IMG/VR virus record: IMGVR_UViG_3300021364_000097 | Span: 1-32,706 of that record | Origin: a virus | Length of the DNA: 32,706 nt | Reading direction: 5' to 3' (one strand) | In this document: piece after piece, positions 1,020-21,683 of the stretch | Layout of the letters: every line of letters begins with the position of its first letter | How positions within the stretch are numbered: position 1 is the stretch's first letter | Notes under the pieces: generated by a model | Seen by the model: only the letters and a program-made list of their open reading frames with translations | Databases searched by the model: none | What the model was told of the DNA's origin: nothing | Made by a program: the position numbers and the translations under genes

Positions 1020-1073
1020 GCAGCGAACAATATCGTTGCATTCTCCCGCACTCGCGACCTCGCGACTGCCTGA
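1020..1073 (+). other. tmRNA proteolysis-tag reading frame (AANNIVAFSRTRDLATA)
   Basis: The resume codon is most likely GCA at 1020, preceded by GATGTC, much as GCA follows TAGTC in the E. coli tmRNA. Seventeen codons give AANNIVAFSRTRDLATA and then TGA at 1071. The core ANNIV.FSR matches marine Synechococcus and Prochlorococcus tags (ANNIVRFSR.. and ANKIVSFSR.. types), which supports both the RNA assignment and the host group. The C-terminus is odd: host tags end in hydrophobic-Ala-Ala (such as -VAA), whereas this ends in -LATA. Which of the two leading Ala codons is decoded first cannot be settled from sequence alone. Confidence 0.8.
1051..1066 (+). repeat. 8-base tandem duplication in the tmRNA tag frame
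   Basis: CTCGCGAC occurs twice back to back (1051-1058 and 1059-1066). Eight is not a multiple of three, so the duplication changes the reading frame of everything after it and determines the unusual -RDLATA ending of the tag. Confidence 0.9.
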
Positions 1074-2782: not shown

Positions 2783-5700
2783 ATGCCGCTAACTAGACTA
2801 GATAACCTGATTTCCAGTAAGACAGGTCGCTATCTCTACGTCTCTCCAGACGACTTTAATGCTAGTGATGAGCTAGACAATAGAGGTAACTCTCCAAATC
2901 GTCCATTCAAGACAATTCAGAGAGCATTTATTGAGGTAGCACGTTACTCGTACCTGCCTGGTATTGATAACGATAGATTCGATGAGTTCACCATCATGCT
3001 GATGCCTGGTGATCACTACATCGATAACCGTCCTGGTCCAGCGAATAATTCGACAACACCAGTATTCAGCTTTGATCAGTCAAACAATGCTTGGACAGAT
3101 TCTTCCCTCCTAGATCTATCTAATCCTAACAACGTTCTCTATCAGTTTAACGGCACTGAAGGTGGTTGTGTAGTTCCTCGTGGTTGTTCACTGGTTGGTT
3201 ATGACCTCCGTCGTACAATCATTCGTCCTCTATATGTTCCTGATCCTGCAGACAAAGAGCAGGCAAGAACATCAATGTTCAATGTAACTGGTGGCGCATA
3301 CATTTGGCAGTTCACAATCAAGGATGGAGATCTCACTACCAAGTCTCCTCTATATGATTCAAACACTGGTGTTGGTAAGGTTTACTATCGTAAAAATGAT
3401 AGTGCTAACCTAGCAATTCCTGAGTTCTCTCACCACAAGATCACTGTATTTGAGTACGCTCAAAAGACTGAACTTGAGATCTATTACGAGAAGATTGCTA
3501 AAGCATTTGCTGAGTATCAACCAACGATTGATGATGCAAATGAGTTTGGTGCAAAGATTCAAGAGACCAGAATCGTTGGTCCTTTGTCTGACCTCAGAAC
3601 GATTGATTCGATCAGAGTTACTGATTCCTCACCAGCAGGAACTGTTACTGTTCAGGTAACAACTAAGATTGCTCACGGTTACATTGAAGGACAGTACGTT
3701 GCTATTCAGGAAAATGGTCTAGATGACGCACTGAATGGTACGTTTGATGTTACTTCTCTCGACACCACTAACCGTAGAGTCTTTGAATTTGAATTAACAG
3801 GAACTGTTGCTGGTCTGGGTCTACAAAATAACCAGACATATACTACAGGTAATGGTCTATCGACCAACGCATATGTTCAGGCAGAAGTTGACTCTGTTGA
3901 GTCTGCATCTCCTTACATGTTTAACCTGTCGATTCGTTCGACTTGGGGTATCTGTGGTCTGTGGGCGAATGGTGCAAAAGCATCTGGATTTAAGTCCATG
4001 GTTTGCGCTCAGTATACGGGTGTTTCGTTGCAGAAAGACGACAGAGCATTCATTCGTTATGATAGATTCACTAACACATGGAACCAGGCATCTCTAAGTG
4101 ATGCTTTCGCAACCACACCTTATCATACTAAGGGTGATGCATACTGGAAGGATGACTGGAGAAACTTCCACATTCGTGCATCGAATGATTCATTTGTTCA
4201 GTGTGTTTCGATCTTCGCTGTTGGTTTCGCTGACCACTTCTTGATGGAGTCTGGTGGTGATATGTCCATCACCAACTCTAACTCTAACTTCGGTAACACA
4301 TCACTTCATGCTATCGGACACAAGGGTTACTCCTTCAATCAGGATAAGGGTGGATACATTTCAGATATTATCCCACCAGAAAGATTGATCGAATCTTCTG
4401 CTAACGAAGAAGAAGTTGATTACTATACCTGGGATGTTCAGGCATCTCGTGGTACAAATACCAAACTATATTTTGCAGGAACAGGAATCACAGATCCTAA
4501 GAAGCGTCCTGCTGCTACCATTAACGGATATAGAATTGGTGCAAAGTCTAATGATAAGATCTACGTTGAACTAGATCCTTATGCAGCAGGTTCGGGTAGA
4601 ACTACACCAACTGATGCTGTCTTTAATGCAACTCTGAGTCCATCAGGTTTCATCTCATATCCATCTTCGATGCAGATCCTCAACCCCACTACGGTGGTTG
4701 TTGATAACAAGAACCAGGATGCTGCTAACAGAATTGAAGACAACAAAGATCTGATTGCAGAAGAAGCATATGGATACATTACTACAAAGTATCCTGCACT
4801 TCTAACCAAGAATATCACCATCACTAAGTGTAAGCGAGATATTGGATATCTCCTTGATGCTATCATTGGTGACTTGAGACTTGGTGGTAACATCAATACT
4901 GTTCAGGCTGCTGAAGCATACTTCACTGGCGGACAACTCAACTACATTGATGGTGAGAAGTTTGAGACTATTGAAGGTTTTGAATATGCTCGTGACCTAG
5001 CAATCGCAGCGATGCGTAACTGGGACTTCCTACAAACAGGATGTACAGTTACTAATGGTTCTGCATATGTTACTGTTCCAACTACTGTCGGTCTATCAAT
5101 CGGCATGAAGGTTGAGGAATATACTGTAGTCAACTCTAACAACACAACTGTTGATACTAACAGTCTGACTACATCAAATATTCCTGCTAACACTTACATC
5201 AGAAACATTGTTAACTCAACAACTATCGAACTTGGTAGTGTTGTAAATGGTGTGAGAGCATACTTGACCACTGGTCAGGCAGTTAATGCGATTGGAACCA
5301 ATAGTAATGCGAAAATCCTCTTCAAGCTAGAAGATGATAATGGCGACCGTAAGGGTATTTGGTCAAGCGAAGAGGGTACAGTAGATACAACTATCACTCA
5401 AGACACAGTTTATCCTGAGTGTGCTACTACTGCATCTGCAATTCAATCTCTATTCGGTCAAGTTAAGACCATCCTTAACAATGGTATCAACCCTGTTGGT
5501 GATCGTTTTGCTGACGCATCTGATCTACTCCTAGCAAATAAAAACTACATCGCTGATGTAGCAGTTAAGGATATGGAAATCCAGTATCCTAACTTCAATG
5601 TTCCTGGTGGTAGCGTCAACTGTTTCGATGACGTTGTTGATGTTGTTGAAACAATTGCATATAATGTTAAGTATGGTTCAAACAACCAAGTATATGATGC

Positions 5701-8700
5701 TGCTAATCTCTATGTAACTGGTGCTCACGTTGCTGGTGAGGAAGAGCAATCAGTATATGTCTTCGATAAGGCACTGGAGATTGCTACAGCAGTTATCCAG
5801 AACATTGTATATAACCCTCGTGCTGGTCTCACCACCACTTACACACAGACTAGAGATCTAACAATTACTGTTGATCCTAATCCTGTTGGTGGACAGTATT
5901 GTGCTGATGTTATCTCAGCAATGACCACTTTGTTCAACTTGATCGAAGCTGGTATTGATAACGCTGGTACTGTATATCCTGCAAATGCTGGTGTATTTGC
6001 TGCAGCAACTAAGACATCACCACAGCAGACAGTAGTTGCTCGTCAGAATCCAACGACATCTACATCACAGTTTGCTAACCGCGCAACACTATTCACTGTT
6101 AATGCTGGTGGTACTAATCCTCACCGCTTTGAAACTGGAACTCCAGTTCGTCTGGTTGCTAGAGCAAAAGCAGGAACAACTCCTGATGAAAGAGATATCC
6201 GTCTACCAGTTGGATTCCAACCAAACAGAACTTACTTTGTAATTGCTCCTGGTAGAGATACTCAACCATTCAACTATAACCAAGCAAGTGTTTATAGTGG
6301 TATCTTTGATGGTGGCGATCAGACCAAACTGATGCTCGCTAACACCAAAGAGAACGCTGCAGCAGGTATCTACATCTATTCACCTGAAACTGAGGCGATT
6401 GATGATGATGTTGAGATCTTAATCCAACAGTATGTTCTAGATGAAACATACAATCTTCACGAGTATCGTGTTACTTTCGATGGTAGCAGCGGTACAGTAT
6501 TGAAGACGGATGTTGCACACATCTTCGACAAACCAACAACAGGATTGGGTGCTGATTATATTCAGAAGGTATTCTTCAGAGCAGAAGGTTCTGATGGTCA
6601 GGTAGGTACTCTACCCACACTGTCTGGTATTGGCGGTACACAAATCTCTGGTACAACTGAGTATTATGTACGCTACAATAGCGATGATACCTTTAAGATC
6701 TTTGCTACGGCACAAGATGCAATTACTGGTGCGCCAGAAGTAACACTAGTCAACAGCACGACTCAGTTCTGGTATGTTTTCGCTAACAAGCGTGTGTCTC
6801 CAATGAGATTCGATCCAACGTTTGTTGATACAAGTGCATCTAGATCACCTGCAATCACTGATGGTCTCTGGTATCTAAATCTTAAAGATGAGACTTCCAA
6901 CGACGATAACATCCTAGGAAGATTCAGTGAGAGTGACTATGATTCTGCTTCTGGTCAGGTTCAGACAACTGACTCTTTCTACACACGTCTTGAAGATAAG
7001 CGTGATAAAGATGATAGAATCTATCGTTTGCGTTATGTCCAACCAAAAGACTTCCCTGGTGCTGTAAGAAAACCAAACAATGGTTTTGTTATCAAGATTC
7101 GTACTGATACGAAGAGAAATCTTCTACCTCAGAAAATCGTACTCGAACCTATTGGAGGTGCTCCCGCATTAGCAGAGTTCCGTAACCCAGATACAACCAA
7201 TGCCGCTGAGGTTATTGGTATGTCTGTTAATCAGTTTGATTCTGCAGTTCAGGCTGGTACTCTAGATAAGGACAATATCTATGATCCAGATAACAATCCA
7301 GTTATTGTTAACACAGATAACTTCCTACGTTTCAGCATCCGCTCTGCTAGAACGGTCACAATTAACTCTCAACCACTGTTAGAAGTTACCGCGTTTGATC
7401 ATACTGTTGATGATACAAATGCACCACAACTTAAGAACACAGTCTTCCATACTGTAGAGATTAATGCACCTCAAGCAGGTACATTTACTGTAAGTAAGAC
7501 AACATCCACAGTATCCAATAGAGTTGAGTGGACTGGTGGTTCTAGTGGTTTTGGTTACATTCATGCTTACTTTAACGTTGGTGCTAAGCATTTCATCATT
7601 CTGAAAGATGTTAGTGCTCGTCCAACATATGATCCATTGGTCAACACAAGATTTGATCAAAATGGTGTCTATGCTGATCAACAGGCAGATGTAAATGGTG
7701 GTAGAGATCTAACTTCTAAGTATCTCTATGTTGTACAGGGTGCTAACGTATTCACTTTAACTCCTGGTGATACAGTAGATGACTCTGTTGGTAATACCTA
7801 TAAGGTTCTTTCTGTTGAAGATGAAAATGATATCGACGATACTTTCTACATCTTTGATGCCGAAGAAATTCAAGAGCGTGTATCTGGTCAGCAAGATGGT
7901 ATTTACTATCTAACTGCTGTTCGTGGTAACGTCACTCCACTACCTCGTGGTGCTGGTGTTGCTAACAACTTCCAGAACTTTAAGTTCTCTCAACCTATTT
8001 CATCACTGTATCCTCTAGACTACAAGAACGATCCAACTTGGTATCAGGTTATCGATAACAATGGTACTAAGGATACTCTAATCAAAGATCCACAGGCATC
8101 TAGTTCTTTTGCTGATAACTATACTCATGGTCTAGTTTACGTCAACGACTACAAGCGTTCAATGACGAAAGAGGCAGTTGTTGATCTAACTGAAAGTGCA
8201 TACTTTGAAGATTACACCTACACTGGTGCTAACTCAATTGCTGCACAAGATGGTAATGCAACATCTGGTTCCGAGCAAAGAAAGATTCCTATTGCTGGTG
8301 ATACTGCATCGGTTCACGATCAGAAAGTTTATGTTGAACTACGTAGACCATCTATCGCAAGATCTGGTAACCACACGTTTGAATACCTTGGTTTCGGTCC
8401 TGGTAACTACTCCACAGGTCTCCCAGCACGTCAGGAAGTCATTCTAACTGAGTTCCAAGACTACTATGCTCAAGCGAAGCGCCAAGACGGCGGTATCGTC
8501 TTCTACACGGGTCTAAACTCCAACGGTGACCTCTATATCGGTAACCGTAAGATTGACGCTATTACAGGCGAAGAGGAGTTCCTTGAGAGAGCAGTTCTAG
8601 CTGAGTCTGAGGATGATTCTGATCCTATTGAGTCACTGGTCACATCATTTGATACTCCAGTTACATTTAAGGATAAGATCACTGTTGAAGGTATTTCTTA

Positions 8701-11700
8701 CCTCAACAACAGAGTCATCATCAATACTCAACCACCTTCAGAATCACCAGCACTGGTCATTCAATCAAACCCAAGAAATGATGGTGGTAACGAAGATAAT
8801 ACTCTAACAAGAGGCAATTTCGCTAACCGAAGTGATGGCGACATTACCATTGATCGCAATAAAATTTCCGCGGCTATTTTTGAGACAAAAGGTCGCGGTA
8901 CAGTCTCCTTCCCTGGACAGAAGTATAGTCAGAGAACTCACTATTCATACTCTGAGCAGATCCCAACTAACAGAACTCCTGATCAAAGTTCAACATTCTC
9001 ATCTGACCAGTTTGTAAGATATTATCAATCTACAGATGTAGATGCGAATCCACAACCAGGAGATATGTTGCTAAAGGGCAATTCTATCCAAAACTCTGGT
9101 TCTCTTGGATGGATCTATGCGAACTATTATCAAGAGATCCCTGCTGGTAGCATTCTTGATCTTGTAACCAATGGTTCTGCAACTGTTAGAATTAACTGGA
9201 GTGGTGTTCTAACGAACGCAGACACCAGCATTAAGATGAGTGTTGGTAAGACAATCCGCATTCAAGGATTCTCTCAACCACTGATCAACGGTCTATGGAC
9301 AGTTACAAGAGCAGATCAAACAGGTGCTGATAATGACTTTATTGAATTTGTTGTTGCTAATGCGATCACTGGTGCAACTTACACTTGGGATCCAACAAAT
9401 CAACCAACCGCAGTTCTAGAGCGTTCTGAAGAATCGTGGAAAGAATTTGGTGTTCTTGGTTCTGAAGCACTTAGAACTGATACTGATGCTATCGGTGAGT
9501 ATAAGTTGGGTGTTAACACACTTGCTCGTACTGCACATGCTGCACACGAATTTGGATTCCTAACATATTCTGCTGGTGGAACAACATATGATCAGCAAGA
9601 ACCAAGAGCAAACTTGGATGTTGTTGGTAATGCATTCATTAGTGGTAGAACAATCACTAATTCTCAGTACATGGCTGGTACTGGAACTGCAAAGGGTGAG
9701 ACGAATGTTCATGAAGCATTCCTAGTTGGCGGTGACTCTGCTTCACCACAATCTACAGCACTGTTTAGAGTTGATACAGTCAACAATCGTGTTGGTATTA
9801 ACCTATCCAGAAGTGATTTAAGTGATACTTTAACAATTAATGGTACACTTAAACTACTTGGTGCAAATGCTGATGTAGATATTGACGGCGATCTCAATGT
9901 TGATGGTGGAGACATCACAACAAATGAATCGACATTCAATCTACTGAATGATAATGCACTCACAGTAAATGCATTTGGTGATGCTACTGCACTTAACATT
10001 GCTGATGATGCAACATCAGATCAAACTATCAATATTGGTACATCTGCTGCAGGACTTGGTACTCTCAATATTCATACCAGTCTAGACAGATCGGTTATTA
10101 ACATTGGTACAACACCAAATAATAATCCTACATCAACGTCTGTTATTACAATTGGTGGTGGATTCCAGAATACTGCTAACTCCACACTGACTGTTAAGAA
10201 CGCTCAGACAATTCTTGATGGTGATCTAGATATTAATGGTGGTGATATTCAGTCTAATTCTTCTACTATTAATCTCTTTACGAGATCTGGTGCTGGTAAC
10301 ATCGTCAACTTTGCATCGAGAGCGTCACAGTTCACTCTTGGTGGTGTTGCTGGAACAACAACAATTAGAAACTCTCTGATTGTTAACGGCGATACAGACA
10401 TGATGGGTGATGTCACCATGAATGGTGGATCAAACAGTGGTACTGTTACTGTTACTAGAGCATCACTGAATACCAGTAAGATTGCACACTCTGCTGGTTC
10501 ACTTTCAAATCTGAATGTTGACTTCTATGAGTTCATCGCTGATATTGATGGTGCTGAAATTATTACCAGTGTAAATGGTAGCAACGGTCAAATGGTTGTT
10601 GCAGATAACTATTTCCTCGATGGTAACACAGTTAGATTCAGTGATACCACTGGTCTTTCTAACAACATAAACACCACTACAACATACTTCGTCGTTAATA
10701 GTTCTGCTGCTAATGGAACACTTCAGATTGCTGCTACTGAGGGTGGTACTCCTATTGTTTTCTCTGGTACTCCTGGTACTTCAACTGGCATCACACTTCA
10801 GAACACGTTGGTTGATACTGGATCAGGCACTAACGCTTGGACTGGTAATTCTTCTGATGCTGAGTATACTAGACTTCCTGTTAATAACGTTGAGGGTATT
10901 GAGATCGGTGATATTCTAATCATCGGTAATGAACTAGTTGAGGTTATCTCTCCTGGTCCAGATGCTAATACTAGAATCGTTCCTGTTAACAGAGGTGTTG
11001 ATTGTACAGACATTCCAACCAACACAGCAGACAACACAGTTATCAACAAACTTGCTAAGTCTCCTGGTGCAACATATACAGTTGGTAGAGTTCCACAGAA
11101 CGCAGCAACTCCTGCAGTATCTAATCTAAATGCAGTTGCAGATACACTTGAAGTTCCTATTGGTGAACTACAAGAAGGTGATGCAGTTTCCTTTAGTTCA
11201 ATCGGAAGCATTCAAGGTGCTATCGTACAAGGTACAACATACTTCGTAGCGAACGTTATTAACGATACTGCTAATAGCGTCACTAGATTTAACCTAGCAG
11301 CTGATCCTGGCGGTGGTGCTCTAGACATTACTGGCGGATCTACTACTGGTGCAGTCCTCAACTTCAGCGATACTTTGATTGCTCTCGCTGAGTTTGGTGG
11401 TCAGATTAAGGTTGGTGATTACCTGAGAATCAGTCCAAGTACAAGTTGCCCATCAGGTGAATTTGTAGAGGTTATCACTGTTAACACTACAAATGCTGAG
11501 AAGTTTACTGTTAATAATGGTGCAAATCAGGATAGATTCGTAATTGATTCTGTCTTTGGTGGTGTTGACTCAACCATTCTTGGTGAGCAAGACTTCAGCA
11601 TTAACCTCACTGCTGTTGCATCAACCAATGCAGATGATAACAAGTTCAGAGTTATTAATGGAACTGGTCTCAATCCAACAGAGAGATTTACAATCAATGC

Positions 11701-12586
11701 TGCTGGTACTACTGACTTTGTTGGTGATGGAACTACGGCAGATCCTAATGCTAGACTCAGATCTGATGGTATGTTCTGGTTGTCTAATATCTTCAGAATT
11801 ACCAACGGAAATGGTGATAATATTGATAGCAATAGCGAAGATCTCTCTCTATACTTCGACAACAGTAGTGGTAACCTAGATGTTCAGGGTCACATCAGAC
11901 TTGGTGATAATCTCTCCATGTTCAAAGATCATGGTAATGGTGTTGGATTCAGTCAAGGTGATCGTGTCTTCCATGTTGAAAATGCTGATGGTGATACAAC
12001 AATCGGTGAAACTGGTGGTGCATATGGTGAAGGTGATCTAACTGTTAACGGTGGTCATCTCACGTTGGTTGGTACATCAACCACAACCCCAAGTAGCACT
12101 GATTATCCACTAAGCATCACAAACATGGGTGTAAGTGGTAATAGAAACTATAGAATCCGTCGTGATGCTGCTATTGATGCATTCGGTGTTACTCAGTTCT
12201 ATAACAAGAACGGTGGTCGTAGATGGGATTACATCAACGCTAACACAACACTTGAAACTGGTAAGAACTACATCGTCGCAGTTTCTGCAGATACGGTTCT
12301 AACTCTACCATCTGACGCAGAAACAGGTGATATGATTAGATTCATCGAAGTTAGTGGTTCAATCTCATATGCACAGTCTATAATTCTTCGCGCTCCAACT
12401 GGTGTTGCTATTCAAGGTGATACCACTGGTACAAACGCTGGTGGTCTTCCTTCCGCTTATCAAGGTGGTGAGTTGATTGTCCAAACTAGAAATGCTGGTT
12501 TCGGAGTAGTCTTCATGGGATCACAAGATGGTGGTGGTCAGTCAATTCCGACTACATATAGAGGATGGTGGTTAACCGAAATTTGA
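2783..12586 (+). CDS. Giant virion structural / tail-fibre-like protein, 3267 aa
   Basis: This is the largest gene in the window. Its N-terminus (a GRYLYVSPDDFNASDELDNR segment, then NRPFKTIQRAFIEVARYS) looks like the start of a right-handed beta-helix spike or pectin-lyase-like fold. Two related helical modules follow at about residues 653-714 and 911-976, each with a C..D.....D.I..... pattern and an AA..Y ending. The middle and C-terminal parts are rich in Gly, Asn, Asp and Thr, with beta repeats such as LNVDGGDITTNES and LDINGGDIQSNSS, typical of trimeric phage fibres. There are no membrane segments. It is followed by three tail-collar genes, so a tail-fibre or baseplate-associated adhesin is likely. 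Very large proteins of this kind are usual in cyanomyoviruses. The exact position in the virion is inferred. Confidence 0.85.
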   Translation: MPLTRLDNLISSKTGRYLYVSPDDFNASDELDNRGNSPNRPFKTIQRAFIEVARYSYLPGIDNDRFDEFTIMLMPGDHYIDNRPGPANNSTTPVFSFDQSNNAWTDSSLLDLSNPNNVLYQFNGTEGGCVVPRGCSLVGYDLRRTIIRPLYVPDPADKEQARTSMFNVTGGAYIWQFTIKDGDLTTKSPLYDSNTGVGKVYYRKNDSANLAIPEFSHHKITVFEYAQKTELEIYYEKIAKAFAEYQPTIDDANEFGAKIQETRIVGPLSDLRTIDSIRVTDSSPAGTVTVQVTTKIAHGYIEGQYVAIQENGLDDALNGTFDVTSLDTTNRRVFEFELTGTVAGLGLQNNQTYTTGNGLSTNAYVQAEVDSVESASPYMFNLSIRSTWGICGLWANGAKASGFKSMVCAQYTGVSLQKDDRAFIRYDRFTNTWNQASLSDAFATTPYHTKGDAYWKDDWRNFHIRASNDSFVQCVSIFAVGFADHFLMESGGDMSITNSNSNFGNTSLHAIGHKGYSFNQDKGGYISDIIPPERLIESSANEEEVDYYTWDVQASRGTNTKLYFAGTGITDPKKRPAATINGYRIGAKSNDKIYVELDPYAAGSGRTTPTDAVFNATLSPSGFISYPSSMQILNPTTVVVDNKNQDAANRIEDNKDLIAEEAYGYITTKYPALLTKNITITKCKRDIGYLLDAIIGDLRLGGNINTVQAAEAYFTGGQLNYIDGEKFETIEGFEYARDLAIAAMRNWDFLQTGCTVTNGSAYVTVPTTVGLSIGMKVEEYTVVNSNNTTVDTNSLTTSNIPANTYIRNIVNSTTIELGSVVNGVRAYLTTGQAVNAIGTNSNAKILFKLEDDNGDRKGIWSSEEGTVDTTITQDTVYPECATTASAIQSLFGQVKTILNNGINPVGDRFADASDLLLANKNYIADVAVKDMEIQYPNFNVPGGSVNCFDDVVDVVETIAYNVKYGSNNQVYDAANLYVTGAHVAGEEEQSVYVFDKALEIATAVIQNIVYNPRAGLTTTYTQTRDLTITVDPNPVGGQYCADVISAMTTLFNLIEAGIDNAGTVYPANAGVFAAATKTSPQQTVVARQNPTTSTSQFANRATLFTVNAGGTNPHRFETGTPVRLVARAKAGTTPDERDIRLPVGFQPNRTYFVIAPGRDTQPFNYNQASVYSGIFDGGDQTKLMLANTKENAAAGIYIYSPETEAIDDDVEILIQQYVLDETYNLHEYRVTFDGSSGTVLKTDVAHIFDKPTTGLGADYIQKVFFRAEGSDGQVGTLPTLSGIGGTQISGTTEYYVRYNSDDTFKIFATAQDAITGAPEVTLVNSTTQFWYVFANKRVSPMRFDPTFVDTSASRSPAITDGLWYLNLKDETSNDDNILGRFSESDYDSASGQVQTTDSFYTRLEDKRDKDDRIYRLRYVQPKDFPGAVRKPNNGFVIKIRTDTKRNLLPQKIVLEPIGGAPALAEFRNPDTTNAAEVIGMSVNQFDSAVQAGTLDKDNIYDPDNNPVIVNTDNFLRFSIRSARTVTINSQPLLEVTAFDHTVDDTNAPQLKNTVFHTVEINAPQAGTFTVSKTTSTVSNRVEWTGGSSGFGYIHAYFNVGAKHFIILKDVSARPTYDPLVNTRFDQNGVYADQQADVNGGRDLTSKYLYVVQGANVFTLTPGDTVDDSVGNTYKVLSVEDENDIDDTFYIFDAEEIQERVSGQQDGIYYLTAVRGNVTPLPRGAGVANNFQNFKFSQPISSLYPLDYKNDPTWYQVIDNNGTKDTLIKDPQASSSFADNYTHGLVYVNDYKRSMTKEAVVDLTESAYFEDYTYTGANSIAAQDGNATSGSEQRKIPIAGDTASVHDQKVYVELRRPSIARSGNHTFEYLGFGPGNYSTGLPARQEVILTEFQDYYAQAKRQDGGIVFYTGLNSNGDLYIGNRKIDAITGEEEFLERAVLAESEDDSDPIESLVTSFDTPVTFKDKITVEGISYLNNRVIINTQPPSESPALVIQSNPRNDGGNEDNTLTRGNFANRSDGDITIDRNKISAAIFETKGRGTVSFPGQKYSQRTHYSYSEQIPTNRTPDQSSTFSSDQFVRYYQSTDVDANPQPGDMLLKGNSIQNSGSLGWIYANYYQEIPAGSILDLVTNGSATVRINWSGVLTNADTSIKMSVGKTIRIQGFSQPLINGLWTVTRADQTGADNDFIEFVVANAITGATYTWDPTNQPTAVLERSEESWKEFGVLGSEALRTDTDAIGEYKLGVNTLARTAHAAHEFGFLTYSAGGTTYDQQEPRANLDVVGNAFISGRTITNSQYMAGTGTAKGETNVHEAFLVGGDSASPQSTALFRVDTVNNRVGINLSRSDLSDTLTINGTLKLLGANADVDIDGDLNVDGGDITTNESTFNLLNDNALTVNAFGDATALNIADDATSDQTINIGTSAAGLGTLNIHTSLDRSVINIGTTPNNNPTSTSVITIGGGFQNTANSTLTVKNAQTILDGDLDINGGDIQSNSSTINLFTRSGAGNIVNFASRASQFTLGGVAGTTTIRNSLIVNGDTDMMGDVTMNGGSNSGTVTVTRASLNTSKIAHSAGSLSNLNVDFYEFIADIDGAEIITSVNGSNGQMVVADNYFLDGNTVRFSDTTGLSNNINTTTTYFVVNSSAANGTLQIAATEGGTPIVFSGTPGTSTGITLQNTLVDTGSGTNAWTGNSSDAEYTRLPVNNVEGIEIGDILIIGNELVEVISPGPDANTRIVPVNRGVDCTDIPTNTADNTVINKLAKSPGATYTVGRVPQNAATPAVSNLNAVADTLEVPIGELQEGDAVSFSSIGSIQGAIVQGTTYFVANVINDTANSVTRFNLAADPGGGALDITGGSTTGAVLNFSDTLIALAEFGGQIKVGDYLRISPSTSCPSGEFVEVITVNTTNAEKFTVNNGANQDRFVIDSVFGGVDSTILGEQDFSINLTAVASTNADDNKFRVINGTGLNPTERFTINAAGTTDFVGDGTTADPNARLRSDGMFWLSNIFRITNGNGDNIDSNSEDLSLYFDNSSGNLDVQGHIRLGDNLSMFKDHGNGVGFSQGDRVFHVENADGDTTIGETGGAYGEGDLTVNGGHLTLVGTSTTTPSSTDYPLSITNMGVSGNRNYRIRRDAAIDAFGVTQFYNKNGGRRWDYINANTTLETGKNYIVAVSADTVLTLPSDAETGDMIRFIEVSGSISYAQSIILRAPTGVAIQGDTTGTNAGGLPSAYQGGELIVQTRNAGFGVVFMGSQDGGGQSIPTTYRGWWLTEI
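4739..5716 (+). repeat. Two diverged copies of a helical module inside the giant structural gene
   Basis: The segments encoded at about 4739-4923 and 5513-5716 align by eye. Both have a helix before a K/Q-YP motif, a cysteine (TKCKRDIGYLLDAI versus VNCFDDVVDVVETI), then a GGN or GSN turn and AA..Y. They suggest an internal duplication. The copies are diverged at the DNA level. Confidence 0.5.
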
Positions 12587-16341: not shown

Positions 16342-17043
16342 ATGCCGATTACAACTCCTGGGTCATCTAATTTTAATGAGATGTTGAACCCAATCATTCC
16401 CGTCAACCTAATGGGCGGAAAGGGAAATTTTGATGATTTTGTTGGTGTTTGGGAAAACTTTGTTCCAGAATCAGTTTGTACAGAACTCATTGACTTCTTC
16501 AAATGCTGGAAAGAAAATGCAACTATTGCGAATGAAGAGCGCGACTTGAAGTTGTTGGATATCGCAGATGCATCAACTGAAGCTTCTAGTGGTCAAACAC
16601 AATTCTCTTCTGGTCATCTTGGGAGAAGAGATCTTTCTCTTATGATTGATAACATGAGTGTTCCTCTTTCAAATACTGTTAATCAGTATTTGCAGTCTTG
16701 TGTTAATCATTATTGCAGAGAATATCAGGCACTTGGATCATCGCCTATCACATCTTGGTCGATCAAGATGCAAGAAACTCCTGCAGGTGGTGGATATCAC
16801 GTTTATCACTATGAGCGTGGGTCTTTTAACGAAGCAGCACGAGAACTAGTGTGGATGATTTACTTGAATGAAGATTTTGATGGTGGTGAAACTGAATTCT
16901 TCTATCAGAGAAGACGCATCAAACCTTCTAGAGGAACTGTAGTTATTTGGCCATCTGGATTTACACATACACATCGAGGCAATCTAGTCCTCGAAGGTAC
17001 TAAATATGTTGTAACAGGATGGTATTATCAGCAACCCGTTTAA
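16342..17043 (+). CDS. Prolyl-4-hydroxylase-like 2OG-Fe(II) oxygenase
   Basis: This 233-residue enzyme shows the prolyl-4-hydroxylase pattern: YHVYHYE with iron ligands H156 and E158 (an HxE variant of HxD), then the core WMIYLNEDFDGGETEFFY (about residues 172-189), a P-RGT-VIWPSGFTHTHRG segment supplying the distal histidine (H209 or H211), and KY.VTGWYY at the end. The family uses O2 and 2-oxoglutarate to hydroxylate substrates, often proline. It lies between the collar genes and a tail-assembly-type gene, so a virion protein substrate is plausible, but nothing in the sequence fixes it. Similar genes are common in cyanomyoviruses. Confidence 0.87.
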   Translation: MPITTPGSSNFNEMLNPIIPVNLMGGKGNFDDFVGVWENFVPESVCTELIDFFKCWKENATIANEERDLKLLDIADASTEASSGQTQFSSGHLGRRDLSLMIDNMSVPLSNTVNQYLQSCVNHYCREYQALGSSPITSWSIKMQETPAGGGYHVYHYERGSFNEAARELVWMIYLNEDFDGGETEFFYQRRRIKPSRGTVVIWPSGFTHTHRGNLVLEGTKYVVTGWYYQQPV

Positions 17044-17044
17044 C

Positions 17045-17920
17045 ATGAATATCACAAATAAAACCGTTATGATTAGTGGTCCTAGTAGGACCGTACAGAG
17101 AGGAACATTGACCGTTACAGTCACTGAGTCTGACTGGGAAAGATATATTGTCCCGCTTGTCTATCCTTTGTGGGATTCAGATAAGGATGTTCTGATGTCT
17201 TTTACATATCGTGATCTACCAGAAGAACAATTCTTCTGTGAGAAGAAAAAGTATGTTCGTAATCATACAACGGGAGAATATTTCTGGAAGGATTACATCT
17301 TTAGTGAAGTTGATCTTGAGGTTGCACGTAAGTTAGCGACAGATATCAGTGAAGCAATTGACGCTATCGCATCAACAACAAAGAGAGATGTTGATGAGAT
17401 GTTTAACACCATCATGAAAAGAGAAAAGGGTCTTTCTCTTGCACGAATTAAAGCATGGAGAAACTTCTTCCTATTCTCTTCTGATTGGACTATGCTGGAA
17501 GATGCTCCAATTTCAGCAGAAGAAAAAGAACAGTGGAAACTGTATCGTCAGAAGATTCGTGCGTTGCCCGATCTATTTGATGCTGGTACTAGTGTTCTTG
17601 CTGAGGTTCATATTCCTATTGATCCAATTGTTTACAGAAAGAATTATTTGCCTTATAATGATGGGGCAACTTACCTTGGAAGCGATGATCAGTTTATCTG
17701 GTTCCCAGGTAAAGATGGACTTCCTGGTGGAGCACTAGACAGAGCAATGCATGAGTATATGCATCTTGCTATTAAGATGTCTAGACCATCCCCAATGTTT
17801 AATGTTCCTAATATCTCCCATCTTACAGATCCAATCGATGCATTGGTAGCAGAGATTGAACGTGAACAAGCACTACTTGATGAATTGAGAGCACAACAAA
17901 ATGCAGCTTCGTCGGATTAA
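17045..17920 (+). CDS. Protein with phage tail-assembly-chaperone-type domain, 291 aa
   Basis: Residues about 138-177 contain SDWTMLEDAPIS, then EQWKLYRQKIRALPD. This is the signature of the small domain found in phage tail-assembly chaperones and fibre-linked proteins (Pfam Phage_tail_APC type). The N-terminal 100 residues are beta-rich and unassigned. The C-terminal third includes GGALDRAMHEYMHLAIKM and ends in a Glu/Ala-rich helix. The EYMH run is not an HExxH. It starts one base after the oxygenase stop and overlaps the next gene by 20 bases. Role in fibre assembly or as a minor virion protein is inferred. Confidence 0.68.
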   Translation: MNITNKTVMISGPSRTVQRGTLTVTVTESDWERYIVPLVYPLWDSDKDVLMSFTYRDLPEEQFFCEKKKYVRNHTTGEYFWKDYIFSEVDLEVARKLATDISEAIDAIASTTKRDVDEMFNTIMKREKGLSLARIKAWRNFFLFSSDWTMLEDAPISAEEKEQWKLYRQKIRALPDLFDAGTSVLAEVHIPIDPIVYRKNYLPYNDGATYLGSDDQFIWFPGKDGLPGGALDRAMHEYMHLAIKMSRPSPMFNVPNISHLTDPIDALVAEIEREQALLDELRAQQNAASSD

Positions 17921-18641
17921 ATGGTTAGATGATGTGGTCTGTGATCACATCGGTAACTTTTATGATTTTTGTGAATTTAAGGATGGTTCTAACACTGGAC
18001 CAAAGAATCGAGAGATCAAAAGAAATGTAGAAATGATCGACAAAGATCTTAAAGCAACATCTTTGTTGATGGATCAATTTCACAAACATCCATTCATGCA
18101 GGCACTATCATTACGTCATGTAAGTGTGCCTTTGTTTGCAGAGTATAGATCTGAAGAGGAAGGTCACTATTCATTTCATAATGATGCTCCCATCATGCAT
18201 GACCTGAGAACTGATCATTTGTTCATTACTGCTATCAATGATGAAAGTGAGTATGAAGGTGGCGACCTAATCATTCGTTGGGGAACTGAGAACCTTTCAT
18301 TCAGACTTAAGAAGGGTGAAGGTATTTTGGTTGATCCAAATTTATGGCATACTGTAACTCCAGTCACAAAAGGCAAGCGAAGAGTTTGTATTATGTGGTA
18401 TGAGAGTTTGATTCGTGATAGCACGATGAGAGAACTATACTTTGATTATGTTGATCTTTGTTATCGAGCAATGCAATGTATTGATCTACAGAAATGGAAT
18501 GAAGTATGTGATATCGATGTGGCTACATATTTCAACGGCATCAAATATAAAATTCTAAGAGAATATGGTGATGCATACCCAGGAAAACATTCCCCTGATG
18601 GTGATGTTACTGTACAACTAGACAACAAATCCTATGAATAA
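17901..18641 (+). CDS. 2OG-Fe(II) oxygenase, PKHD-hydroxylase-like
   Basis: This 246-residue protein has the double-stranded beta-helix signature HND (H93, D95), a GGDLIIRWG strand (120-128), KGEGILVDPNLWHTVTPV with the distal iron ligand H150, and KRRVCIMW with the arginine that would hold 2-oxoglutarate (R160 or R161). The spacing is like PKHD/PiuC-type hydroxylases. A C-terminal extension of about 80 residues is unassigned. The start ATG lies 20 bases inside the preceding gene and its stop overlaps the following start by eight bases, so it belongs to the same late operon. The substrate is unknown. Confidence 0.83.
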   Translation: MQLRRIKWLDDVVCDHIGNFYDFCEFKDGSNTGPKNREIKRNVEMIDKDLKATSLLMDQFHKHPFMQALSLRHVSVPLFAEYRSEEEGHYSFHNDAPIMHDLRTDHLFITAINDESEYEGGDLIIRWGTENLSFRLKKGEGILVDPNLWHTVTPVTKGKRRVCIMWYESLIRDSTMRELYFDYVDLCYRAMQCIDLQKWNEVCDIDVATYFNGIKYKILREYGDAYPGKHSPDGDVTVQLDNKSYE

Positions 18642-19005
18642 CTTTCTCACATTACAAGAACTCATCTCTGACTACGCTGTAGCAAGAGAAAAAGTTTTAA
18701 TTTGGTTTGATGCTAAGGGCATTCGTAAACTGGAGGATGCTGGAAATGTAGATAAACTAAATCAAGTCTACACTTTCTATCGTGAATTCCTACCTGATGA
18801 TGTTTACGCTGAGTTCTTTAACTCTTCCTTCGGAACATTTGAGCGTAAAGATCCTATCGTTGCACAAGATCTGGTTGAAGATTGGTTCCCACCTGTAGAA
18901 ACTCTTCCTGACTCAGATTATTATGTTTACTCATGCGTCTTCGCTAGAAATGGTGTAGTTGCGTATGAAAATGTTACGCCAACTCGTCAGGGAGATACTG
19001 ACTGA
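18634..19005 (+). CDS. Hypothetical protein, 123 aa
   Basis: An acidic protein, partly helical (DYAVAREKVLIWFDAKGI at the start), with a C-terminal WFPPVETLP segment. No recognised domain or membrane segment. It is the last forward gene before an inverted gene: its final 32 bases overlap the 3' end of the reverse-strand oxygenase at 18974. It starts within the last eight bases of the preceding oxygenase gene. Function unknown. Confidence 0.7.
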   Translation: MNNFLTLQELISDYAVAREKVLIWFDAKGIRKLEDAGNVDKLNQVYTFYREFLPDDVYAEFFNSSFGTFERKDPIVAQDLVEDWFPPVETLPDSDYYVYSCVFARNGVVAYENVTPTRQGDTD

Positions 19006-19750
19006 CGAACCATGACGCTCCCTGTTCATTAATACCATGATATTGAACAGAGTGGTCAATACCTTCTAGTTTTACACCAAACCATCCTTGCGGTTCTTTC
19101 GTGAGTAAATCTTTATCTCTTTGAGGGGTCAGTGTTACTGATCCCTTTTTAATTTCATATGGTAGATTGTACTCAACACATGCTGGTTCATATGGTCTGG
19201 TCTTCCATATGTTGTACATCAATGTGATTCTCTTCTCACCAGGATACATCTCACCATAGTTTGAAGGAACTCCATGAAAATAAGGCATTGCCCACGTTAT
19301 ATGTTTACCTGCCTTAGGTGAACTCCAAAATGACCATGCGTCTTCACCTGTAACATAAACACCATCAGTTTTACTCCAGTCATGGTATTGATCCAACAGA
19401 ATTGTGGGTTGACCTGAGTTAGTTAAATATGTTACAGTGCAGAATGGAGCAGGATAATACACACCATCTTTGTTAAACCTATCCAGATCTCCATCTACAT
19501 GGAAATACCAATAGGAACTTAGATCATCGTGCGATCTGATCCACCATTCTGCACCAACATAACTATGATACATGTTATGTTTTCTAGCAGACTCAAAAAT
19601 ATACTGCTCGATAATATTCTCTGGGTGTCTATCAAATCCGTACCACCACGTTAGTTTTTGATCTTCATCGTGTGCTAGAATGTTATCAGCTTCCTCTTTG
19701 ATGAGAGCAGTGCTCTCTTCACTGAGATAGGTACTATATGATTCAATCAT
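18974..19750 (-). CDS. Reverse-strand 2OG-Fe(II) oxygenase, 258 aa
   Basis: This is the only convincing reverse-strand gene in the window. The protein has FHVDGD (H84, D86), APFCTVTYLT (about 101-110), AMPYFHGVPS with H159, and GEKRITLMYNIW with R174. This is a complete HxD...H...R set for a 2-oxoglutarate oxygenase. A WWYGFD and an EWWIRSHDD segment lie before it, and an unassigned 75-residue C-terminus follows. Its 3' end overlaps the converging gene by 32 bases. Its start codon shares the palindrome CATG (19748-19751) with the forward gene at 19749. No promoter is obvious because the upstream sequence is coding on the other strand. Confidence 0.82.
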   Translation of the reverse strand: MIESYSTYLSEESTALIKEEADNILAHDEDQKLTWWYGFDRHPENIIEQYIFESARKHNMYHSYVGAEWWIRSHDDLSSYWYFHVDGDLDRFNKDGVYYPAPFCTVTYLTNSGQPTILLDQYHDWSKTDGVYVTGEDAWSFWSSPKAGKHITWAMPYFHGVPSNYGEMYPGEKRITLMYNIWKTRPYEPACVEYNLPYEIKKGSVTLTPQRDKDLLTKEPQGWFGVKLEGIDHSVQYHGINEQGASWFVSQYLPDELA

Positions 19751-20441
19751 GACTAATCAAATTCTTCCACTTTTTCCTACTGTTATTTACCAATGCAAAT
19801 TAGATGGGTTTGAGGAGTGGCGCGATCTTCTTCTCTCCAAGAAAGAATACCAGTTTGATCCTAATGATGGTGATCCTCATCTGACTGGTGAGTTTAGGGA
19901 CAAATGTCTCATGCATAAAGATGAAGATCTGATGTCTTTCTTTGCTGAAGTAACTGATGGTATCTACGGATGCCTGGAAGCAGCAGGAGTCAAGAAAGAC
20001 ATGCACATTCCATACATCATGAAGTCTTGGTTTACAATCAAGGACAAGTCTGATATGCTTGGTGAACATCGTCATGCATGTTCAGATCTTTCGTTTGTAT
20101 ATTATTTGACTGGTGGTCAACTGTGCTTCAAACAAGAGTGGAACGCTAACCAATACTTTGGTGGTATGCTCGATGCTAAACCACCTGAGCGTAGTCACAT
20201 TGATAATGAAACCTTCTTCACTACTAAAGTTACTGCAACTACCGTTGCTCCTGGGGATCTACTCGTCTTCCCTAGTAATCTGCTACATTTTGTTATGCCT
20301 GAGGAAGGAACAGACACAGTAGTAAGATCTGTTGCTGGTGATATTAAACTCATGCTCACTGATGAGTATACTAATCTTGAAACTGGACTGATTCATTACA
20401 GTCACTGGAGAAAGTTCAACACTAAAGGATTGCACAAATGA
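19749..20441 (+). CDS. Putative 2OG-Fe(II) oxygenase, 230 aa
   Basis: Begins with the typical LFPTVIYQ start seen in TIGR02466-like phage oxygenases. The likely iron site is GEHRHACSDLSFVYYL (H107 and H109) with distal H180 in FPSNLLHFV, and R193 at the 2-oxoglutarate position. A VAPGDLLVFPSNLLHF strand is strongly family-like. The HxH in place of HxD is shared with several other copies here, so one metal ligand may differ from the classic triad. The start overlaps the divergent reverse gene at a CATG, and the stop overlaps the next gene by four bases. Confidence 0.75.
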   Translation: MTNQILPLFPTVIYQCKLDGFEEWRDLLLSKKEYQFDPNDGDPHLTGEFRDKCLMHKDEDLMSFFAEVTDGIYGCLEAAGVKKDMHIPYIMKSWFTIKDKSDMLGEHRHACSDLSFVYYLTGGQLCFKQEWNANQYFGGMLDAKPPERSHIDNETFFTTKVTATTVAPGDLLVFPSNLLHFVMPEEGTDTVVRSVAGDIKLMLTDEYTNLETGLIHYSHWRKFNTKGLHK

Positions 20442-21088
20442 AGTACGACTACAAAATTCCTATTTTCAAGTATTCTCTAAATGATTGGGAATCCAAAAAA
20501 ATTGAAATTCTTGAATTATTAAAAACTAAGATTAATAATCCAGAAAAATATCGTAAGGACTACAGAGATCAAATCGAAATGAGTTATGGTCTAAAAGATC
20601 AACCGACTACTGAAGTTGAAACTGACTTCTATGAAGGATATACTCAAAATTGGGAGAATACTCCCCACTACAAAGGAGATATCATTGAACTTCTTTACCC
20701 TGAGTTGCGTAAACTTGTAGAAGATAGTGGTATTCCTGCTCGTTATGATGCTACAGCAATGTGGTATGAACGTGCTAAAAAAACTGAGGTTCATGGTGTT
20801 CATGATCATGGAGCAAAAGGTATTTCTGCTGTTCTATATGTTGAACTAAATGATAATCAGAAAGGAACACAATTTTATCCTGAATGGGGTGAAGACTTCA
20901 CTCTAGATCTGGATGTTAAAGAAGGAGATATTATTTTCTTCCCCTGCTGGTTGAAACATGCTGGTTCAATGAATACTGATGATGAGATTAGAACTATTGT
21001 CTCATTTAACATGATTAGAATCAGACCAGAAGAGGATGAGTGGGAACAATCAGATTCAGACTATCAACACTTCACTGTCCATGTCTAA
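20438..21088 (+). CDS. Putative 2OG-Fe(II) oxygenase, 216 aa
   Basis: The metal-binding signature is VHGVHDHGAKGIS (H122, H124, with D123 between), then KEGDIIFFPCWLKHAG with H174, and DEIRTIVSFN with R185. About 100 N-terminal residues are helical and lysine-rich, and include YEGYTQNWENTP. The fold assignment rests on the order and spacing of these motifs. It begins in an ATGA overlap with the preceding oxygenase and overlaps the next by eight bases, forming a run of three forward oxygenases probably translated from one message. Confidence 0.78.
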   Translation: MKYDYKIPIFKYSLNDWESKKIEILELLKTKINNPEKYRKDYRDQIEMSYGLKDQPTTEVETDFYEGYTQNWENTPHYKGDIIELLYPELRKLVEDSGIPARYDATAMWYERAKKTEVHGVHDHGAKGISAVLYVELNDNQKGTQFYPEWGEDFTLDLDVKEGDIIFFPCWLKHAGSMNTDDEIRTIVSFNMIRIRPEEDEWEQSDSDYQHFTVHV

Positions 21089-21683
21089 TTTTGCATTCAT
21101 ACAACCAATTGTACAATTCGAGTCTCCCAGTGTAGACATTAAGAAAATTGTTAATCGTGTCTATGACTTTTGGGACAAAAATATTGATAACACAACCATG
21201 CAAGGTGGGTATCAACTACGCCTTGTAAATCACGAGAGTGGTAAAGTGAATGAACTTTTTGTTCCAGAGATCAATGCACTCTTGCAAGAAGGTATTACAA
21301 CTGGTGTTGAGAACTATATTGCAACATTGAATATTGATCAGAAGGAAGAGTTCTCTACTAAAATTTGGATTACTAACGTGTGGATTAACGTCGCCACGCC
21401 TGGTTCTTATCATCGAACACACATTCATGGGAATTCACACTTGAATGGTATATTCTATTTGCAAGTACCAGAGAATAGTGGTGAGACATTTGTAGTTAAT
21501 CCATATCCTACTGGTGTTGAGAGTATACTGAAAACACCAAACTCATCTATCTCATTAAGTGCGCGACAAGGTGTTGGGTACATATTCTCCTCATCTTTAG
21601 CACACTACACAGACCCAAACCATTCTGAATCTGATAGGATCTCACTAGCATTTGAGATTAAACTCGATACCATACTGAAATAA
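21081..21683 (+). CDS. Putative 2OG-Fe(II) oxygenase, TIGR02466-like, 200 aa
   Basis: Motifs are WINVATPGSYHRTHIHGNS (from residue 101; H114 and H116), GIFYLQVPENSGE (about 123-135), a distal H175 in SSSLAHYTDP and R187 in DRISLAFEI. These follow the TIGR02466 pattern of putative 2OG-Fe(II) oxygenases common in cyanophages. The ATG at 21081 is preferred over an upstream in-frame start because it gives the standard FAFIQPIVQFE beginning and a short overlap with the previous gene. The gene ends an operon, as a strong terminator lies 20 bases after the stop. Confidence 0.82.
   Translation: MSNFAFIQPIVQFESPSVDIKKIVNRVYDFWDKNIDNTTMQGGYQLRLVNHESGKVNELFVPEINALLQEGITTGVENYIATLNIDQKEEFSTKIWITNVWINVATPGSYHRTHIHGNSHLNGIFYLQVPENSGETFVVNPYPTGVESILKTPNSSISLSARQGVGYIFSSSLAHYTDPNHSESDRISLAFEIKLDTILK

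Follow-up and report, generated by a model that had tools for sequence, protein, structure and literature searches.

A predicted -LATA tag end in a cyanophage tmRNA belongs to a recurrent, phage-specific variant of the host -VAA degron

A short reading frame in a 32.7-kb IMG/VR virus contig with T4-like cyanophage content (hereafter the window, i.e., the whole stretch of DNA analysed) resembles a cyanobacterial tmRNA tag and ends in -LATA, which raises the questions of whether this end is genuine, how widely it occurs, and what it would mean for the degradation of tagged proteins. The frame lies in a genuine, permuted, two-piece tmRNA gene of the cyanobacterial type, with the following parts:

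about 836-1141, + strand: permuted two-piece cyanobacterial-type tmRNA gene (ARAGORN and Rfam)
901-925, + strand: 3' piece of the tRNA-like domain, with T arm AGGGG-UUCGAUU-CCCCU, acceptor 3' strand CACUUCC at 918-924 and discriminator A73 at 925 (read directly and Rfam alignment)
926-931, + strand: intervening segment CUUCAU, 6 nt, to be removed in the two-piece form (read directly)
932-938, + strand: acceptor 5' strand GGGGGUG, which pairs with 918-924 and yields G3-U70 (read directly)

The Rfam model cyano_tmRNA (RF01851) matches positions 845-1135 over the full model length with 145.3 bits (E 6e-40), above its gathering cut-off of 70 and with the permuted gene order, and tmRNA_permuted (RF04321) matches the gene with 84.4 bits. 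The 3' limit given by ARAGORN (1164) is too far downstream, as it overshoots into a tRNA-Thr. Membership of RF01851 is further borne out by an alanine-accepting tRNA-like domain (7-bp acceptor stem, G3-U70, T arm), read at 901-925 and 932-938, and by an A at position -4 of the resume codon together with a terminal stop codon (AUAGAU followed by GCA at 1002; TGA at 1071-1073). G3-U70 is the identity pair for alanyl-tRNA synthetase. No CCA is encoded at the 3' end of the tRNA-like domain, which comes first in the gene and is followed by the 6-nt spacer and then by the 5' acceptor strand. This spacer is very short, and lengths of 3-6 nt are common among phages, which raises the question of how such spacers are processed; the tmRNA of Prochlorococcus was seen as two pieces on a Northern blot (PMC1242208). 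The gene is flanked by a CpeT-like gene (314-841) on one side and by tRNA-Thr, -Ala, and -Asn on the other. The former, directly upstream, matches the CpeT/CpcT family (Pfam PF06206, E 7.8e-43) and suggests a phycoerythrin-containing Synechococcus as the host. In five phage records (L002, L003, L005, L008, and L009), the tmRNA is unannotated, and short hypothetical ORFs have been laid over or partly over the gene.

The features within and around the tag are:

998-1013, + strand: hairpin AGAUG-CAAAAA-CAUCU spanning the resume codon, with phage covariation to AUCUG..CAGAU (sequence comparison and folding)
1002-1073, + strand: probable tag frame AKTSDVAANNIVAFSRTRDLATA, resume codon GCA at 1002-1004, stop TGA at 1071-1073 (ARAGORN and comparison of the A at -4)
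1020-1073, + strand: part of the tag described in the first-pass annotation, AANNIVAFSRTRDLATA, with its stop (read directly)
1048-1069, + strand: P5-type hairpin below the tag end, GCA-C-UCGCG-ACCU-CGCGA-C-UGC, which includes the Thr codon and covaries (folding and covariation)
1065-1067, + strand: penultimate codon ACT (Thr), the A of which closes the inner stem with U1052, while the C is opposite a C and the U pairs with A1050 (read and folding)

Direct reading of the + strand at 1020-1073 gives the codons GCA GCG AAC AAT ATC GTT GCA TTC TCC CGC ACT CGC GAC CTC GCG ACT GCC TGA, and the 17 residues given in the first-pass annotation, the -LATA end included, are correct letter for letter. The tag thus lacks the two terminal alanines of the canonical ssrA degron (-AA-COOH), with Thr in the penultimate position and the final Ala kept. 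A sequencing error or a frameshift can be ruled out: L097, an independent contig, shows 100% identity in the gene and 97.7% across 12.9 kb, and the same end turns up in dozens of contigs as well as in several isolates.

The start of the tag, which the first-pass annotation had placed at 1020, has to be moved. Judging by sequence comparison, the tag very probably begins 18 nt upstream, at GCA 1002-1004, and comprises 23 amino acids (AKTSDVAANNIVAFSRTRDLATA). In Escherichia coli, the resume codon is positioned by A86 at -4 (PMC2481249). Host cyanobacteria typically have GUAACU followed by GCU AAC AAC, and the phage counterpart AUAGAU precedes GCA at 1002; in both, the base at -4 is A. By the same measure, GCA 1020 (U at -4) and GCG 1023 (C rather than A) are disfavoured. 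The A at -4 of the upstream resume codon is present in 101/101 distinct viral and 97/97 host genes, a count that is partly circular because ARAGORN places the resume codon by such a motif. Independently of ARAGORN, some relatives read ANNIDTAANNIV, repeating the host start, and L342 shows a frame-preserving 3-nt difference, with a six-residue extension. The isolates Sf-FS3 and S-SSM7 have similarly extended predicted starts, A-AKTSDVAANNIV and A-AKSSDTAANNIV, respectively. The class of S-SSM7 (L008, 1675-1752, and relatives) contains an additional insert of 8 codons within the tag, forming a strong hairpin (UUCUCUCGUAUUCUUACGAGAGAA), so that the tag has 31 residues.

The hairpin spanning the resume codon was compared across phages. 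All five pairs form in each of 22 distinct sequences, and two of them differ in both bases (GC to UA, AU to CG), although the 100% pairing means little, since these sequences were hand-picked among those sharing the register of the 6-base loop and thus chosen for forming the hairpin. Across all 45 distinct sequences, five pairs with a 6-base loop are found in 37 and four pairs with a 7-base loop in 8. The double change is common to seven sequences and may represent one or a few events. Nearly all hosts make just one or two of the five pairs.

Accordingly, the phage gene differs from the two-piece tmRNA of marine Synechococcus and Prochlorococcus (RF01851, tag ANNIVRFSRQAAPVAA) in its resume-codon hairpin, in the N-terminal extension AKTSDVA of the tag, and in ending with -LATA where the host has -PVAA. 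The two share the permutation, the tRNA-like domain, the A at -4, the hairpin at the tag end, and the ANNIV.FSR core of the tag, which the first-pass annotation had rightly called host-like.

Is this end an isolated oddity? Viral loci were retrieved with three patterns, one placed in the front half of the tag (the source of most loci), one in the T arm, and one in the 5' acceptor strand, all of which leave the last residues unconstrained. The 101 distinct cyanobacterial-type viral genes with an ANNIV or ANKIV tag end in -VAA (32), -ATA (31), -VTA (15), -VAV (9), or otherwise (14). Together, -ATA and -VTA account for 46 of the 101 genes, and a penultimate Thr for 48 when -ATV is included, shares that hold for this tag family and not for all cyanophage tmRNAs, because the collection was assembled mostly by matches to the front half of the tag. 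Of the host loci, 97 in total, all but two have -VAA (95), the exceptions being one -GAA and one -ATA. The -ATA locus (L191, from the metagenome-assembled genome "Proteobacteria bacterium TMED61") is 97% identical to phage contigs over 1.3 kb and was rejected as a host gene, being misbinned cyanophage DNA. Of 46 different tags from unrelated viral tmRNAs, none has a penultimate Thr and 43 end in -AA. The non-canonical character that the first-pass annotation had ascribed to the end is thereby confirmed: neither genuine host genes nor the unrelated viral tags have it, whereas it is kept in many cyanophages. These include the isolates Sf-FS3 (-LATA), S-SSM7, and S-SSM6a (both -LVTA), as well as the single-cell virus AG-345-P14 (-LATA). 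These comparisons show the predicted -[AV]TA end to be a variant of the host -VAA degron that recurs among cyanophages. Other cyanobacterial-type viral tmRNAs likewise depart from -AA, with -VAV, -ALV, or -SLV (L085, L093, L100, L109, L288, L323, L349, and L350), and the phage ends -VLA and -VPA were also seen. A few other cyanobacteria have tags ending in -AIA or -AVA.

With the tag columns excluded, a tree inferred from 176 tmRNA genes unites the hosts in one group and places the gene of the window outside all 93 of them. Parsimony places 15 changes between Thr and other residues on this tree, at least 6 of which are forced by strongly supported branches; the exact count is unsure, since the tree is based on 196 columns and has many weak branches. 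One relative, L091, is 91% identical to positions 1-1269 of the window, yet its tag reads -STVAA. The two are 94% identical in the 170 nt that lead up to the resume codon and 92% identical in the opening 48 nt of the tag, but only 43% identical at the tag end, a pattern that would fit an exchange of tag ends between phages via recombination.

The Thr codon lies within the P5-type hairpin, with all three bases of ACU inside the covarying structure, and the hairpin might thus be what fixes Thr, the peptide end being a by-product. An alignment of 15 distinct sequences has standard pairing in 99.2% of its pair cells and double-sided changes at four pairs, and its covariation score was reached by 0/500 shuffles; the RRTELVTA class was left out of this count, as it pairs differently and 3/8 pairs fail in that register. 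Moreover, the hairpin ties the -3 residue to an upstream residue through complementarity (CGC for Arg opposite GCG for Ala, GAC for Asp opposite GUC for Val, AGC for Ser opposite GCU for Ala). Nevertheless, GCU (Ala) replaces the Thr codon in L019 and L083 via a U-G pair at a cost of approximately 0.7 kcal/mol, Thr persists in the RRTELVTA class although pairing differs there and leaves its A unpaired, and L108 has changed ACU to ACC with a compensating partner while retaining Thr. Because of the Ala in L019 and L083 and the Thr in the RRTELVTA class, Thr is not forced by the structure, and we regard a purely RNA-based constraint as very unlikely. The probability that the gene is a decaying or hitch-hiking copy is smaller still, practically negligible: the records that leave it unannotated or overlay it with short ORFs would suit such a view, but the tRNA-like domain is intact, 101 distinct genes have an open tag frame and a stop, the hairpins covary, and differences preserve the frame.

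How tagged proteins would fare depends on the host. Neither SmpB nor ClpP was found across 16 phage records, several of which are fragments, as is the window itself; a phage-encoded SmpB or ClpP matching the odd tag was therefore rejected, and the host proteins must serve. ClpX of Synechococcus WH7803 retains the pore-1 loop GYVG, the pore-2 loop SITRDV, and the RKH loop, as in the recognition complex of E. coli ClpX (6wr2/6wrf; PMC7652416). In E. coli, replacing either of the two terminal alanines increases KM but hardly alters Vmax; the text of that study does not name the residues tried (PMC7652416), so that Thr could be without effect or could inhibit strongly. In Salmonella, ClpXP is needed for the loss of reporters ending in -AAV and -ASV, which are degraded more slowly than those ending in -LVA (PMC11003136). 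A literature search for degradation data on an -ATA tag returned no source.

We consider it probable that rescue proceeds normally with host SmpB and that -LATA is a weakened but working ClpXP degron, so that tagged fragments would be degraded more slowly. The two-piece phage tmRNA would be charged with alanine inside an infected phycoerythrin-type Synechococcus, would release, together with host SmpB, ribosomes stalled on broken mRNAs, and would append the 23-residue tag ending in -LATA. While -[AV]TA retains the final Ala and, at -3, a residue that is small or hydrophobic, the swap of the penultimate Ala for Thr would lower the affinity for host ClpX (a higher KM), and degradation by host ClpXP would continue at a slower pace. 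Sequence analysis establishes the gene with its anatomy and tag end, the absence of this end from hosts, and its repeated gain and loss; expression, charging, tagging, and weaker degradation are the parts of this explanation that we infer; that ClpXP would recognise and degrade the -ATA tag is suggested by the E. coli data and by the conserved loops of WH7803 ClpX. Marine cyanobacterial ClpXP has other ClpP subunits and may work with adaptors by which the tag is read differently.

Slower degradation has to be weighed against having no effect at all. For cyanobacterial ClpX, a penultimate Thr could serve just as well as Ala in the degron, with the tag end drifting or recombining without functional consequence, since Thr is small and one base from Ala (GCU/ACU), its state flips often on the tree, phages also end in -VAV, -SLV, -VLA, and -VPA, as relaxed constraint predicts, and the -AIA and -AVA ends occur in a few other cyanobacteria. 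We hold this for a possible, if clearly less probable, reading, because the penultimate Ala is normally constrained (-VAA in 95/97 marine hosts, -AA in 43/46 unrelated viral tags), because KM of E. coli ClpX rises once it is changed (PMC7652416), and because Thr prevails among the phage replacements (48/101, -ATV included), unlike in random drift. At the opposite extreme, host proteases might miss -ATA, so that ribosomes would be freed and tagged fragments spared or left to another protease; the end is conserved and phage-only, and for phages without their own SmpB or ClpP, a change of tag would be their lever on the host pathway. This we think unlikely. The C-terminal Ala and carboxylate that ClpX contacts directly are retained, a changed penultimate Ala acts mainly on KM in E. 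coli (PMC7652416), tags such as -ASV remain ClpXP substrates in enterobacteria (PMC11003136), and the related phages L091 and L115, one of them at the same locus, use -VAA, which indicates that escape is at least not required. Thus, of the suggestion in the first-pass annotation that tagged proteins might be degraded differently or escape ClpXP, the former may well hold, given the unusual and conserved end, whereas escape is not favoured, and its further step, a separation of ribosome rescue from proteolysis, is unsupported as written. A further reading, which we hold to be improbable, would see in the tag end of marine cyanophage tmRNAs an exchangeable cassette that toggles between the host-like -VAA and the phage-only -[AV]TA and sets the speed or occurrence of fragment destruction during infection, with the virus in control of ribosome rescue and proteolysis detached from it or redirected.

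Phage two-piece tmRNAs as such are already known; within that system, sequence comparison shows the predicted tag end to be a genuine and recurring variant that is specific to phages. According to the relevant passages, 53 two-piece phage tmRNAs have been counted, 50 of them marine or aquatic (PMC9004378), and a tmRNA database of 2025 holds 79 phage sequences (PMC11915505); in those passages of the two papers, tag ends of this kind are not discussed. A literature search on tag ends of phage-encoded tmRNAs found nothing, with subscription papers outside its scope, so that an earlier mention is possible. Other cyanophage tmRNAs belong to the same family: Sf-FS3 (-RELATA), the tag of which is one residue off that of the window (D to E), and AG-345-P14 (-RQLATA). 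S-CAM1 and S-CAM3 belong to it as well but keep -VAA (-STVAA). S-SSM7 and S-SSM6a, which end in -DELVTA, are further members, the S-SSM7 tag being longer through its hairpin-forming insert. The OM43 phage Melnitz also carries a permuted tmRNA, which is described as alphaproteobacterial in type (PMC9004378). A likeness exists to the engineered E. coli ssrA tags LVA, AAV, and ASV, in which altered last residues give a graded weakening of recognition by ClpXP (PMC11003136); unlike in these artificial tags, the phage change is natural, phage-borne, and penultimate, with the final Ala kept.

Possible purposes of a phage tmRNA are the freeing of ribosomes or the recycling of amino acids from broken proteins. 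The ends -VAA, -ATA, -VTA, and -VAV form a natural allelic series, carried by almost identical RNAs and in some cases at one and the same locus. With this series, one can ask directly whether phages depend on the proteolytic half of trans-translation or on rescue only, and it would be a natural counterpart of the engineered weakened degrons of synthetic biology.

Elsewhere in the window, a 3267-codon ORF at 2783-12586, in the position where S-SSM7 carries a gene annotated as fibre, probably encodes a giant tail fibre protein. Furthermore, the region 16342-21683 contains five ORFs with matches to 2OG-Fe(II) oxygenase families, an unusually dense cluster.
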